Source: Apophysomyces variabilis (Eukaryota > Mucoromycota > Mucoromycetes > Mucorales > Mucoraceae). From it: a stretch of 64,000 bases of DNA. Where the stretch lies: assembly GCA_002749535.1 (NCBI GenBank), contig MZZL01000401.1:396301-460300 (forward strand), in the 5' to 3' direction. Below the pieces are notes generated by a model. That model was given only the letters and a program-made list of their open reading frames with translations, made no database searches and was not told where the DNA came from. This document shows, in pieces, positions 58,687 through 64,000 of this stretch; position 1 is the first letter of the stretch, and each line of letters begins with the position of its first letter. A program made the position numbers and the translations under genes.

Positions 58687-59666
58687 ATGCTCGGAAACCA
58701 TTTCACAACAATTCATCCTGCTGATGACCATTTTGTTAAAGAAAATGAGACCGTATCAGTGGACTCAATTCTACCATCGGCATCAGCTGAGACAACTGAA
58801 CAGTCCGTATTGCTACAGGAAATAGAGAAAGCTTTTCCTGGCAAAGATAATAAGCTTGACTATCCACAGCAACTCGGGCCTCCTATACCGGCTCGACCAG
58901 CTGCTTATCATCTGCCGCAAATAGCCCAAATAACCCTGCCATTGTCGATGCCATTAAGGCAGATCGTAACGATCGCTCTTCTTACGGGGTTTAGCATAGC
59001 CGGCGTTGTTGTCGGTTTGCTGAGAATCGTTAAGGTGAAATAAAATAATAGCTTTCGGAACCTAGTCGTCAAACCTCAGAAGTTCGGGCTAACCAGTTGT
59101 GCTTTTTCTTTTCATTTTCTTCTTAGTACTTTATGTTTCCAATACTTACATCCATAACTCGGTATCGTCGAGATCGGTGCAACCAACGAAGCGCGCTTTT
59201 AGAAGGCTTGATCGAGAGATTACAAGCCCCGCCTGACGTTGGGGGGACTTCCCAAGTAGTTGCGGAGCGACATGGGAAGATCTCGGATAATTTAGAATGG
59301 ATGCTTGAGCAGCTCCAGGGCCACATCGCCGTCAAGGGAGGCAAAGCTTACAGGAGGATATGGTCACTTCGAGCAGCTTTAAGAGACTGTAGGCACCGGC
59401 TTGTCACAATTGCTGAGAAAGATGTTTTGTCAGCTTCTTCTGGGTACGGTTCTCGACCATTGGCTGGTTCACCTATGGTAGAGGGTTTGAGAAATGAAAT
59501 CCTCAGCCTCAAAGGAATATTACTGAACCGAAAAAATTTCCCTTTGCTTCCCACAAGCCAGCCACCCCCACCTGCTCCGTACCATCCACGCCGCCAGAGA
59601 TCCTTTCGTGCAGAACTTTCTGCTCAATCACAGAAAGAGAAAGAGGACAAAAATCAAAAGCAATAA
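58687..59666 (+). CDS. Membrane/coiled-coil protein, possibly Pex14/Pex17-like
   Basis: Two exons, 58687-59034 and 59127-59666, give 295 residues in phase. The N-terminus is acidic; then PQQLGPPIPARPAAYHLPQI, a membrane-like segment (IVTIALLTGFSIAGVVVGLL) with a second short hydrophobic part (YFMFPILTSI), and basic, helical, coiled-coil-like sequence (RSALLEGLIERLQA, DNLEWMLEQLQGHI, VEGLRNEILSLKGIL). A Pro-rich basic tail ends KEDKNQKQ. The order Pro-rich, one TM, coiled coil recalls the middle and C-terminal parts of peroxisomal Pex14/Pex17 docking proteins, but I see no diagnostic motif. An additional upstream exon is possible (acceptor-like TTTTCAG at about 58658). It is tail-to-tail with the Fanzor gene. 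Confidence 0.5.
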
Positions 59667-59973
59667 ATTGCGTTATGCACAAACTTGCCAGAAGTCCAGA
59701 GTGGGGTTTTTCCTGGGCTTCAGAAATGGTGGATCTGAATACTGGTTTATTCAAAAGTTTTTAAAGATTTCATCCAAAATTGTTTGAAGATTCCACCCAA
59801 AACTGTTTGAAGATTTGGGTATAGAAGTTATAAATAATTTGCCAACAAACTGTTAGTGATTATCCTCTGTTAAACTGTGATAGTGAACTTACCGGCGTGA
59901 CCACCTGCGAAAGATAAACATTAGTAAAAAATTCCTAACTAGAAAAATTGGCTAATACACTTACCGTAAAAAC
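59667..59973. other. 3' flank of Fanzor gene, candidate guide-RNA region
   Basis: 307 bp after the Fanzor stop (reading minus). Contains three related ~22-bp units and two donor-like GTAAGT sequences on the minus strand. No protein frame. In characterised Fanzor loci the guide RNA overlaps this side; that it does so here is inference. Confidence 0.45.
59749..59815. repeat. Three tandem ~22-bp repeats beside Fanzor
   Basis: Units at 59749-59770, 59771-59792 and 59793-59815. The last two share CC[A/T]CC[C]AAAA[T/C]TGTTTGAAGATT almost exactly; the first is more diverged (TCAAAAGTTTTTAAAGATT). They may belong to a transposon end or to a structured RNA. Confidence 0.7.
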
Positions 59974-62919
59974 CTAAAAATCCCCGGAGGGACCAACCGT
60001 ATTCGTAACGGCGGTGTATTGATCTAATGAAGGCCGGGCAAACTCTCTTGGTCTTCCTTGCCCAGACCAAATTGACTCCGCAATCAAGAATAAATTTTTA
60101 CTGGCCAAGACGTCTCGGTCCCATAACATCTTACAGTTTTTGCATACCAAGATGCTATGGTGAGAAACGCAATCGGCTGTGGTAAGCTTTTGCAGGGACC
60201 TGTATCTGCAGCTATGGCACACCTAAACGACGTTTGTGAGCATTATATTACTATCAATCGCTCCAACTTACTTGCGAAGAAAGGTATTCATCTATCGTGA
60301 GCACCAATAGTTCTTCGCGCTTTTCTCTCCGTTTCAAAGATCTCCATAGGATATTCACAACTCCCTTTCGGTGTCCTTTGTAGTTGCATCGATTGTTGAA
60401 CATCCCGTCCCCAAATACAATGAGTGGCACTTTCCTTTCAACAGTGAATTTCTTTTGCCTCCAGTGAGGTAAACGCTTGGTTTTTTTAAGCGTACTGCGC
60501 TCGGCAGATGTATTTGGCTGGGGAAGGCTATCAATTAGCTGTTAATTCCTGCAGGTAACGAACTGTCATGCAGATAAATACTAACCTTTGGTGTAACGGA
60601 TTGCCAACTTCTGAATCTTTATTGACCTGCTTCTTCCGACTTTTTCGCTTCCTTTTCCGGGATTTTCTGTTTGATCTCGTCCGTTTCCGTCTGCTACAGT
60701 TGTACTTTTTACCACCAAATGCTAGTATATTGACCATTTCCTCTCTTGCTCTTTGCACGCCTTGATATCCTCGAAATCGAGCTTCAGCTCGATGCGGACC
60801 ATAAAACTGGAAAAGCACGTCCATATTGCCGAATATAGATCGTAGATAACCGTCGTAGGCTTCGATATGCGCTGTTTTTCCAGACTCCAATGAGGTTTCA
60901 ATGTCTTGTATACCTTGCTGCTTTTTTTCCTTCTCCATTTTATTCTGTCTATTCGGCGAACCAGTATACACATAGTATTCTTTGGTTGAGCATCTCCTTA
61001 TTTCATGAGGTTCTGATCCGCAGCCATAAGAAGCAGTAAAGACTTGATTGATGCCCGGATCAATCGCACATGGTGCAAAATTGTCATAGATATGGTTACC
61101 GTCAATGTCTTCAACAGAGAGGCTGGCGTCCGTGACCACTGACTCAATCTTTCGTGCGCGAGCGAACTGGAAGTCAATCGCGTAGCCATCGGTGAAGATA
61201 ACATTTTTGAAAGCGATTCGTCCACTGTTACCGAAATTTTGAAGCTGCTCCAGACTAACAAACATTTTTGAGAGATTTAGCTACAAATAATCATAGTAAA
61301 TACCTGTCAAATCCCAGCTTGTGGAAATCAAAAACTTGATAAAACTGGGCAAGCTGGTCCTCATAGTCTTTTCGGTGGCTGATGTTCGTTAACTGTTGAA
61401 GGGTCTTGGAATTAACGCAGATAAATCTCCAATGAGTTGAAGGAGACGGAGACAGAGAAAACAATCGCGGTAGATCCTTAAAACTACCTTTTGCCTTTTC
61501 GGCTTCTTCGTTTTTTGGATCGTATTGCTCTCCTTGAGCGTTTTGTTTTTGTTTGGCTTCTTCATGCTCTCGATTGTATTCGGTGAGTATATATGCTAAC
61601 ACTGGAATGTAGCTGCCTGGAAAAGCAGATAGTTTTTCCGCGTTTGTTTGCCATTCGGGCATTAGTGTCGCAAACTCGCCACAAATGGTTTCTACAGCCT
61701 GATCAAAGTCCGAGACGGCAAGTTCATCTTCGAAAGGCCAGTGAGGATCACCTCTAGCAAGTAGTTCATAAATATAGTCTCCTGCAATGGCTTTTGCATT
61801 TTTTTGGGATAAGCCCTATACATATATAGTTAGTTGAGAGGTATGCACTATGTATGCTTTCATCTTACAAGTATAAGCTTTGTAAGTCGTCTCGAGATAT
61901 AAAACTTTAGGCGACCTTCAAAGTTTTCAGCGACATTGTTGGAATATGTGGTGGCTAACGTGACACAGGCCGCGGAAAGGGCATCACTGTAACCGGAAAA
62001 ATTCCTAACAGGATAAAGAGCATTTGGATGGTTATCCAAGAACGCTCTCCAGTGATCACGTAGGTCTTGAGGGAAATTGGGGTTGTTGTTGCTAATATTG
62101 ATGCCCATGATAAGCTGACACGCCGAATACCAGAAGTTTTGAGTATAAATATAAGAAGGCACCGGTCTATCACAGTTCGCAATAATGTACGAGTTGACAA
62201 GTAGCTGAGCACGGAAGATAACTTCCCTAAGGAATGCCGATAATCGAACGCTATTCTCCTGGAAAATCTCTCGAAATTCTTGACGCACCACAGATGAAGT
62301 TGGTAACTTTCGAGTAAAAGTTTCGTAATGATTGTCGTTTAGTTTCTCCGCGATAACGCTCTTTTTCGTTTTGGAGGGTTTCCTGCAATTTTTAGAAGAA
62401 GATTTCGAATGATCGATACCGCCGCAGCTCGGGCATGGTTTGTTGGATTTATTTGGATTCGATGTCTCCTCCGCTTTGAGTTGTCTTCCACGTTTTTTTG
62501 CCGCTGAAAACTCTGCCTCCTCTGTAGCATTCAATTTTCTTTTTACTCCAACTTACACAGGAAGGGACGTTATCAGAGACACGTTGCGGATTAGAAAATG
62601 TATTAGCTTACCAGGTTTCTTTCCATGGCGCGCGTTCAATGGACATGCCTTGTATCGTTTATTTGGATGACCATTCTGCCCGCAGTCTTTGCAAAAGACT
62701 GAACATGATATGTGTGCAATGATAAATAAGGCTATTGATCAAGAAAAACTTGTCCCTTCTGTAAGACTCACCTTCTTCTCGTTTTAAGCGTTCTGCTTCT
62801 TGTTGGAAATATTTTCTGATTTTGCAAAGGCAGACGATACCTTGCCAGTTCCATTCATAGGAACGCGGAATCAAAGCTGTCAATTTTGAACAGCACCACT
62901 CAAAGACGGCTTGAAGCAT
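59974..62919 (-). CDS. Fanzor (eukaryotic TnpB-like RNA-guided endonuclease), intact
   Basis: Seven exons (62919-62772, 62698-62612, 62551-61869, 61815-61304, 61254-60586, 60527-60272, 60222-59974) sum to 2604 nt, 867 residues, every phase consistent. The N-terminus has two CCHC knuckles (Cys52/55, His60, Cys68; Cys118/121, His126, Cys134). A helical region follows, then RuvC-I FAPCAIDPGINQVFTASYG (Asp542), a very basic stretch (SRRKRTRSNRKSRKRKRKSR), RLPHWRQKKF and VPLIVFGDGMFN. At the usual RuvC-II glutamate position there is Gly-Asp; instead LTIDEYLSSQ supplies Glu780 about 40 residues later, as reported for Fanzors. A zinc ribbon (CHSC ... CKNC) and RuvC-III LWDRDVLASKN (Asp822) follow. 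In the family the nuclear protein uses a guide RNA from the element end to cut DNA. Met1 may instead be an upstream in-frame ATG at 63042. Confidence 0.88.
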
Positions 62920-63786
62920 AATGAGAAAAGACAACGCAAAAGAGATGTGATAGAATGTTCTTGTTACTTCTGTTGTCTCTTTTAAGGTACGATGGTAATC
63001 CGAAACCGTCACATGCGTAATTGGACAACTTTTGCTCTTCACTTATTAATGACGGTGTATCCAGACTATAACTTCGTCGTCTTTACATGGAAACAACTTT
63101 TTCCATTATGCCATTCAATGATCTATTCCTCGACATTCATAAATAAGACCTTCGAAAGTTTAAGACCGACTTTTTCATTTTTCTAACAAAACAAATTCTA
63201 TTAAATTTTTTAAGCTGGTAGGTTGGACAACTTTTTTTAAACAGAGACGCATTATGCTTGAAACAAGAATGTCAAATTAAGCTTCAGGGTCTACGCTGCG
63301 CTACTAATTCAAGGTTATCAAAACCATACAAGCCCCGCTAAACAGGACTTTTAAGATGTGTAGGCCTAACCGGTTTTCCGAAATTGTAAGTTACAAGCCA
63401 ATATCACATACTAGACAGGTGAGTCGTGCCGAATGTCGCGTATGTGTAAATCATACAGTATACTGCTATATTCTACGATACTCATACTTCTGTCAAAGAA
63501 GATTACAATATCTAATTTTGAAATGTATACAAAGACACTTGTAGGTCAAGGAGATAAGCCTTTATGACAAACCCTTTGTTTGTGGCCTCTACTTTTTGAA
63601 GCTTTTCTGCTTTTCTTAGATCATGAAAAAAGCAAAGGTGAATAGACTAATAAACTGATGGAAATGAAAAGGGCAAATAGGAGGTCTATGGAAATGTGTA
63701 ATACGGAATCAGTCATTGATGATAACCATTGAAGGAAAAACCAAGGGAAAGTGGACGTAAGAAAAAGAGTATTATATTCGTGCTTG
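62920..63786. other. 5' flank of Fanzor gene
   Basis: Non-coding as far as seen. TTGGACAACTTTT occurs at 63021 and again at 63223, and an inverted repeat TGGAAA/TTTCCA surrounds a related ACAACTTTT at about 63088-63105. These may be element-end motifs. The stretch 63621-63786 (minus) is open and hydrophobic but in a frame I judge intronic or 3' to the neighbouring gene. Confidence 0.45.
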
Positions 63787-64000
63787 TCAAAACAAGTATC
63801 CTCTCTGACTGGACTCCAACTAGGTTTTGCCTTTGATAACGTTTTGTTTCGCACTCGATTCACACGTGCGTATAATGCGGATTTCCACAGCTTTGCCAAA
63901 CTTCGTCCATTACACAGGTGGTGACGATAGATTCAATTAAAAACAATATAACTATCAAAGCTAGAGAAAGAGAATACGAAGGTGCAGTATGTGATGCCTC
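63787..64000 (-). CDS. C-terminal part of a membrane protein (continues beyond window)
   Basis: Reading minus from the window edge, an open frame runs ASHTAPSYSLSLALIVILFL, IESIVTTCVMDEVWQSCGN, PHYTH. At 63866 a donor (GTGTGA) and at 63819 an acceptor (ACCTAG) join it to LESSQRGYLF-stop (63787). One strong membrane segment is visible. The alternative of reading another frame after the acceptor gives a longer hydrophobic tail (63621-63812). Family unknown; only a fragment is in view. Confidence 0.35.

Follow-up and report, generated by a model that had tools for sequence, protein, structure and literature searches.

A Fanzor1 gene on an IS630/Tc1-mariner transposon with a one-sided RC-TA flank signature, and a candidate guide RNA at its right end

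Fanzor proteins are eukaryotic relatives of the CRISPR enzyme Cas12. The locus described here raises the question of whether it encodes an intact member of this family and what such a protein might do for the transposon in which its gene resides. The biological role of Fanzors was stated to be unknown in the 2023 Fanzor paper (PMC10432273; cited, like all other sources here, from its accessible sections). Throughout, the window denotes the whole stretch of DNA that was analysed, 64,000 nucleotides in length, within which only the Fanzor end of the transposon lies, the left end being located beyond position 64000. The original prediction had proposed a full-length, apparently catalytically intact Fanzor encoded in a fungal genome by an 867-codon, seven-exon model with no stop or phase break. 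This model was reproduced from the raw sequence, with zero internal stops and all six introns (49–73 nt) of the GT-AG type, and has the following layout:

59974..62919, minus strand: Fanzor1 gene of 7 exons and 867 aa, rebuilt from raw sequence
62919-62772, 62698-62612, 62551-61869 and 61815-61304, minus strand: exons 1–4
61254-60586, 60527-60272 and 60222-59974, minus strand: exons 5–7

Frames and splice sites were compared in a sample of 20 copies fetched with their flanks, the window copy included. All twelve splice dinucleotides of the model are retained in 12 of the 19 other copies, namely eight young ones (99.1–99.9% coding identity) together with L021, L023, L026 and L028, and the seven-exon splicing of the window Fanzor, like its start codon, is predicted from the sequence.

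In the rebuilt protein, the three RuvC residues and the zinc ribbon are located where they had been placed: D542 within AIDPGINQ, E780 within IDEYLSSQ, D822 within WDRD, and the ribbon cysteines at C787, C790, C812 and C815. VFGDG is found at residue 737. The sole Pfam domain reported above cut-off is Cas12f1-like_TNB (PF07282, E=3.9e-8, aa 764-829), and the Fanzor/TnpB motif as published in PMC3627910, D-X(125-275)-[TS][TS]XX-C4-X-RD, is matched from D542 to D822. The protein also combines DPG at RuvC-I (542) with an alternative glutamate, E780, separated by six residues from the first cysteine of the first CxxC (C787), which corresponds to the definition of a Fanzor in PMC10711439, and its zinc-ribbon spacer of 21 residues is longer than the 12–18 of the search pattern used in the accessible text of that paper. 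Among structures in the PDB, SpuFz1 was the best match with the C-terminal part as query (whole-sequence score 1.5e-5) and GtFz1, at 1.4e-3 with the same part, ranked first with the whole protein, the individual aligned stretches of both matches being weak when taken singly. D822 falls opposite the RD aspartate of SpuFz1; in GtFz1, E780 falls opposite a glutamate and D822 opposite an asparagine. Together, the Pfam domain, the PDB matches and the published motif support the identification of the gene as a Fanzor1, and the position of E780, both opposite a GtFz1 glutamate and six residues ahead of the ribbon, agrees with the proposed displacement of the RuvC-II glutamate. Two N-terminal CCHC knuckles had been claimed as well; both are present, at aa 52 and aa 118, but with the non-classical spacing CX2CX4HX7C, and a pattern search of the protein for the classical CX2CX4HX4C knuckle found none. 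A Zn2Cys6 domain (PF00172) is encoded within the window and supports a fungal host, as predicted.

A search of the 38.7-Mb host genome for further copies with a 901-nt Fanzor probe gave at least 40 matches. Among the matches listed, 30 span 856 nt of the probe or more, and ten, one of which is the window copy, match it at 99–100% identity, with a different right flank in each. The copies sit within TA-flanked inverted-repeat transposons, and the near-identical copies with their distinct right flanks support recent activity and mobility of the Fanzor-bearing family, in line with the original prediction. A protein-level search with exon 5 gave at least 152 matches (150 of 251 candidates scored); since these are pieces, the number of genes is smaller than the number of matches. 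The host genome is dense in Fanzors, and a second Fanzor group shares 38–53% of exon 5 with the query.

The intactness claimed for the window copy holds for that copy but not for the family as a whole, in which the Fanzor frame is open in just four of the 20 fetched copies (the window copy, L012, L014 and L016) and broken or partly masked in the other 16. Three of the four open frames keep all three catalytic residues; L016 has a tyrosine in place of D822. Five of the remaining six young copies carry a frameshift and the sixth, L017, one stop and masked stretches, and every one of the ten older copies (L019–L028) has frameshifts and stops relative to the window model. Such decay, which reaches half of the ten young copies as frameshifts and the third catalytic position in L016, would suit a Fanzor that is intact merely because its copy is young and that is carried as inert cargo without selection for function. 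We consider this improbable, given that both the flank signature and the right-end block described below recur in the second Fanzor group and that a sister Fanzor beside one copy retains the DPG motif and a knuckle. Conservation across the 38–53% group speaks for a function, at the least in the periods between invasions.

That sister Fanzor is located near L011 (C95:367027-367611), about 3 kb from the right end of the copy, stands at 41% in exon 5, and its knuckle is of the CX2CX4HX7C form. Five broken copies (L019, L022, L024, L026 and L028) have a stop in common at window-model codon 754, either by common descent or through a mutation hot spot. In L010 (C86:105250-115150), at 891-1090, a 201-bp piece of Fanzor coding sequence takes the place of about 360 bp of the upstream part, as if it were the outcome of template-switching during break repair.

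The part of the transposon visible in the window comprises, in addition to the Fanzor gene:

62920..64000, minus strand: upstream noncoding part of the window transposon, extending past the window edge
59742..59788, minus strand: right terminal inverted repeat (TIR), ending ...AACCAG; inner limit approximate
59740..59741, no strand: TA at the right end, a target-site duplication of the Tc1/mariner type

TA is present in 36 of 37 Fanzor-linked right-type ends. Three young copies (C94, C95 and C43) are homologous over approximately 7.07 kb, contiguous end to end, and reveal a composite whose order, from the left, is TA, TIR (its tip decayed in C95), the transposase frame, an inward copy of the TIR, a stretch of about 2.3 kb lacking long frames, and then the Fanzor gene with the right TIR and TA behind it. 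The transposase frame is open over 466 codons in C94 and C95 and over 424 in C43; altogether four copies at 99–100% identity (C94, C86, C95 and C89) keep all 466 codons open, and in C94 the transposase and Fanzor frames are both open. The transposase, read from copies outside the window, matches DDE_3 (2.6e-21) and the IS630 family NF033545 (1.1e-32; 113.7 bits against a cut-off of 100), and 34 residues separate its last D from the E. On the strength of the DDE transposase and the TA-flanked TIRs, the transposon is of the IS630/Tc1-mariner type, with the window copy judged by its right end. An intact frame would also be found in a domesticated host gene that no longer transposes, an explanation that we hold to be extremely improbable for a locus inside an element that has a TIR and TA and is present in multiple copies, some of them near-identical.

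Other arrangements coexist with the composite. In six older copies (L019, L020, L021, L023, L026 and L027), the left TIR directly precedes the Fanzor region and the transposase is missing; the older C59 copy (L022) does carry one. Two intact solo transposon copies without Fanzor, C93 and C79, have the left-type TIR at both ends, and the left and right TIRs of Fanzor elements differ (GGTTTTTTC vs GGTTTATTC). Damage to the inner TIR of the composite takes more than one form, its TA reading TG in C95, C41 and C89 and its outer bases being lost in C94, C43 and C35; C86, C81 and C59 keep this TIR. This variety fits, and may reflect, selection for joint movement of transposase and Fanzor.

A TIR pattern search that recorded eight flanking bases found 83 TIRs and zero control matches. 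At Fanzor-linked left ends, the base before the TA (–1) is C in 23 of 25 and the base at –2 is a purine in 24 of 25 (A 17, G 7, T 1), against a window background of 0.187 for C before TA (binomial tail 3.5e-15 for 23/25); at Fanzor-linked right ends, the flanking base is C in 5 of 37. The 25 left ends are 23 rows less C87:1123993 and C100:58437 (unclear register), plus L021, L027, C116 and C89:641559, the last counted though its Fanzor is displaced; C49 (flank same as C94), C95:377630 (decayed tip) and internal TIRs were left out. From the 37 right ends, C76:209610 was dropped (unclear register), and C46:27056, really a right end, was added. The Fanzor-free control consists of the two intact solo copies and their four ends, where both left ends read T and the right ends read C in one case and G in the other.

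We read RCTA (R, purine) as the putative target-adjacent motif (TAM) of the Fanzor, in which TA would be the target of the transposase and RC an extra demand. Since the solo copies lack the extra RC demand, that demand appears to be tied to the Fanzor and its RNA and not to the transposase ends. For one site, the genome also contains a relative of the left flank that is not followed by an element (C46:74000-74090); its match to the flank, 92% over 98 bp, runs through ...GACT and includes the C, which at that site is therefore host DNA and not carried by the element. Transposases can favour particular bases around TA, and the signature could instead express an end-specific target preference of the transposase, with the Fanzor as a passenger or in some other role. 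Such a preference is conceivable since the left and right TIRs differ, the small solo control (2 copies, 4 ends) leaves it room, and C also precedes the TA at uncounted left-type ends without a nearby Fanzor (C69:6513, C95:4176, C30 and C77, the last a Fanzor-free transposase fragment); the other uncounted left-type ends read C (C46:28947), T (C62) and G (C113). We nevertheless regard it as rather unlikely, because C occurs at one of the four ends of the solo copies, all of which bear the left-type TIR (probability 0.002 at the Fanzor-linked rate), and because the conserved left dinucleotide of the SPu-1 family of Spizellomyces punctatus belongs to a measured TAM (PMC10432273). Our prediction of RCTA as a TAM follows the same logic: in SPu-1, as here, bases are conserved ahead of the left repeat, and the SPu-1 bases, CA, are part of the TAM measured for SpuFz1, CATA (accessible text of PMC10432273).

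Two exceptions to the signature, C23:71643 and C69:19974, both read GAG-TA. A separate TAM in the sister group of these copies was considered and is not supported, as the extra usable end, C116, reads AGCTGC-TA; it was one of four additional sister-group copies, C124 and C100 having no left TIR tip and C88 no end in the stretch.

The right end offers candidates for the guide RNA of the Fanzor:

59742..59883, minus strand: conserved right-end noncoding block overlapping the right TIR, candidate fRNA (omegaRNA) scaffold
59715..59739, minus strand: candidate guide, host flank right after the right TA, TTCAGATCCACCATTTCTGAAGCCC; role suggested by published Fanzor loci
59905..59964, minus strand: possible GT-AG intron in the 3' UTR, ending just ahead of the candidate fRNA; from sequence only

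The window family and the second Fanzor group (38–53% of exon 5) share a conserved stretch of approximately 75 nt ahead of the right TIR. In the fetched stretches, the core motif of the block occurs at 29 of 30 right-end loci, a number that includes ten near-identical young copies, at 0 of 21 left-end loci and at 0 of 5 Fanzor-free transposase loci, these five being made up of both solo copies plus three pieces, of which one is partly masked. As the motif is limited to right-end loci, the block is not a transposase-binding end as such, and it is likely to represent a guide-RNA scaffold. Host DNA, which varies between copies, adjoins CCAGTA directly at right ends, and by comparison with known loci the host DNA after the right TA is the likely guide. 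For other Fanzors, native guides of roughly 11–21 nt are reported, and for other Fanzor1s the guide-RNA scaffold has been predicted to take in the TIR and the target-site duplication (PMC10711439 for the scaffold). RNAalifold, applied to 29 right ends, yielded –1.0 kcal/mol and no conserved fold (the shuffle control had zero spread and was uninformative), a fold of 23 right-end sequences contained six pairs, none with a compensatory change, and Rfam had no match within the window at gathering scores.

The gene, the element, the transposase, the right-end block and the flank signature are observed directly in the DNA. To account for them we lean towards a mechanism in which a Fanzor1 on an IS630/Tc1-mariner transposon, guided by the right-end RNA and using RCTA as its TAM, would retain the element by cutting empty sites. 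The transposase would excise the element and paste it into a TA; the 3' region of the Fanzor mRNA (about 59883-59740) would provide the guide-RNA scaffold, right TIR and TA included, with the host bases immediately past that TA acting as the guide. After departure of the element, the emptied site would read RCTA followed by the guide target, so that the Fanzor complex would recognise RCTA and cut the empty allele, and repair from a copy still holding the element would restore or copy it. Insertions at a TA without a preceding RC would be unprotected and lost, and for this reason a one-sided RC signature would remain. In this scheme RNA expression, cleavage, the role of RCTA as TAM and retention are what we infer; retention appears to be the simplest mechanism for the RC signature and parallels the published view of TnpB (PMC10432273). 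With more reserve, and with somewhat less than even confidence, we propose that the Fanzor and not the transposase might determine which insertions last, the RCTA TAM extending the TA target and acting as a filter that would leave the one-sided flank bias absent from Fanzor-free copies.

The original prediction had also looked to empty sites, and here the outcome was negative: none spanning both flanks cleanly was found for five joined flank pairs (c43, L027, c76, c94c and c94b), nor did the other joined flank pairs, which were compared with the fetched loci only, yield one. The joined c76 flank and its match in C113 have 9 nt in common left of the site and no more; the match of c94b in C46 extends over 98 bp of the left flank at 92%, after which 8 nt intervene before the first 9 nt of the right flank. 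Across 20 joined flanks, there was no convincing reading frame of an interrupted gene. Within the window, a 179-aa stop-to-stop frame without a Pfam match (59127-59666) ends 73 bp before the right TA of the element, so that the insertion lies just past a possible gene. The insertion C76:28327 lies approximately 8 nt, and C94:1391016 approximately 18 nt, from the edge of a high-copy repeat; each of these two repeats has at least 38 further matches.

Since a Fanzor1 with a mariner transposase, Fanzor-only TA elements and families that exchange their 5' parts have all been described in the accessible literature, the kind of element is known. SPu-1, which carries SpuFz1, likewise has a Fanzor1 enclosed by inverted repeats and putative TA duplications (PMC3627910) and a noncoding RNA downstream of its gene that runs past the repeat (PMC10432273). 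It measures about 2.1 kb with a single ORF, and according to the accessible text of PMC10432273 no transposase was found between its repeats, whereas the Fanzor gene of the window is split into seven exons and encodes zinc knuckles, and young composites of its family carry an open IS630 transposase. Fanzor-less 'ghost' elements of S. punctatus retain the CA and a guide-RNA-like end (PMC10432273); unlike these, the solo copies here have ends without the right-end block. PGv-1 and PUl-1 also unite a Mariner-type transposase and a Fanzor1 in one TA-flanked element (PMC3627910, Bao and Jurka 2013), but PGv-1 is described as single-copy (PMC3627910), unlike the multi-copy fungal family of the window, whose solo, Fanzor-only and composite forms occur in one genome and so make the flank comparison possible. 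MCi-2 of Mucor circinelloides resembles this family in having a near-identical Fanzor-bearing 3' part and exchanged 5' parts (PMC3627910), as do here the three young copies with a transposase unit and C41, where part of an older element, inverted, stands instead of that unit; it differs in its 11–12 bp duplications and in being described there as having no recognisable TIRs, in contrast to the TIRs and TA found here. PpFz1 of Parasitella parasitica is a fungal Fanzor1 too, with a solved structure, and differs in its TAM, ATN, and in a cyclophilin-binding domain (PMC11423790); it is absent from the PDB matches of the window Fanzor at E up to 1.

In the accessible literature that was searched, no study comparing copies of one DDE transposon with and without a Fanzor was found. 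That comparison, and the one-sided RC signature, are new here. One genome unites composites, in at least one of which (C94) both genes are open, with Fanzor-only and Fanzor-free copies and a predicted TAM and guide, so that it becomes possible to test directly whether an RNA-guided nuclease of a eukaryote helps the transposon that carries it to stay put.

A separate observation concerns related IS630 transposases (35–48% identity to the query), which form inverted pairs that span 4.6–16.6 kb and have the same or nearly the same scores (C87:489447/493189, C87:1166176/1170973, C80:513211/520291, C92:283164/298674, C75:974197/981339, C95:1785493/1792186 and C74:74388/78701). These pairs look as if whole transposase genes were contained inside very long inverted repeats.
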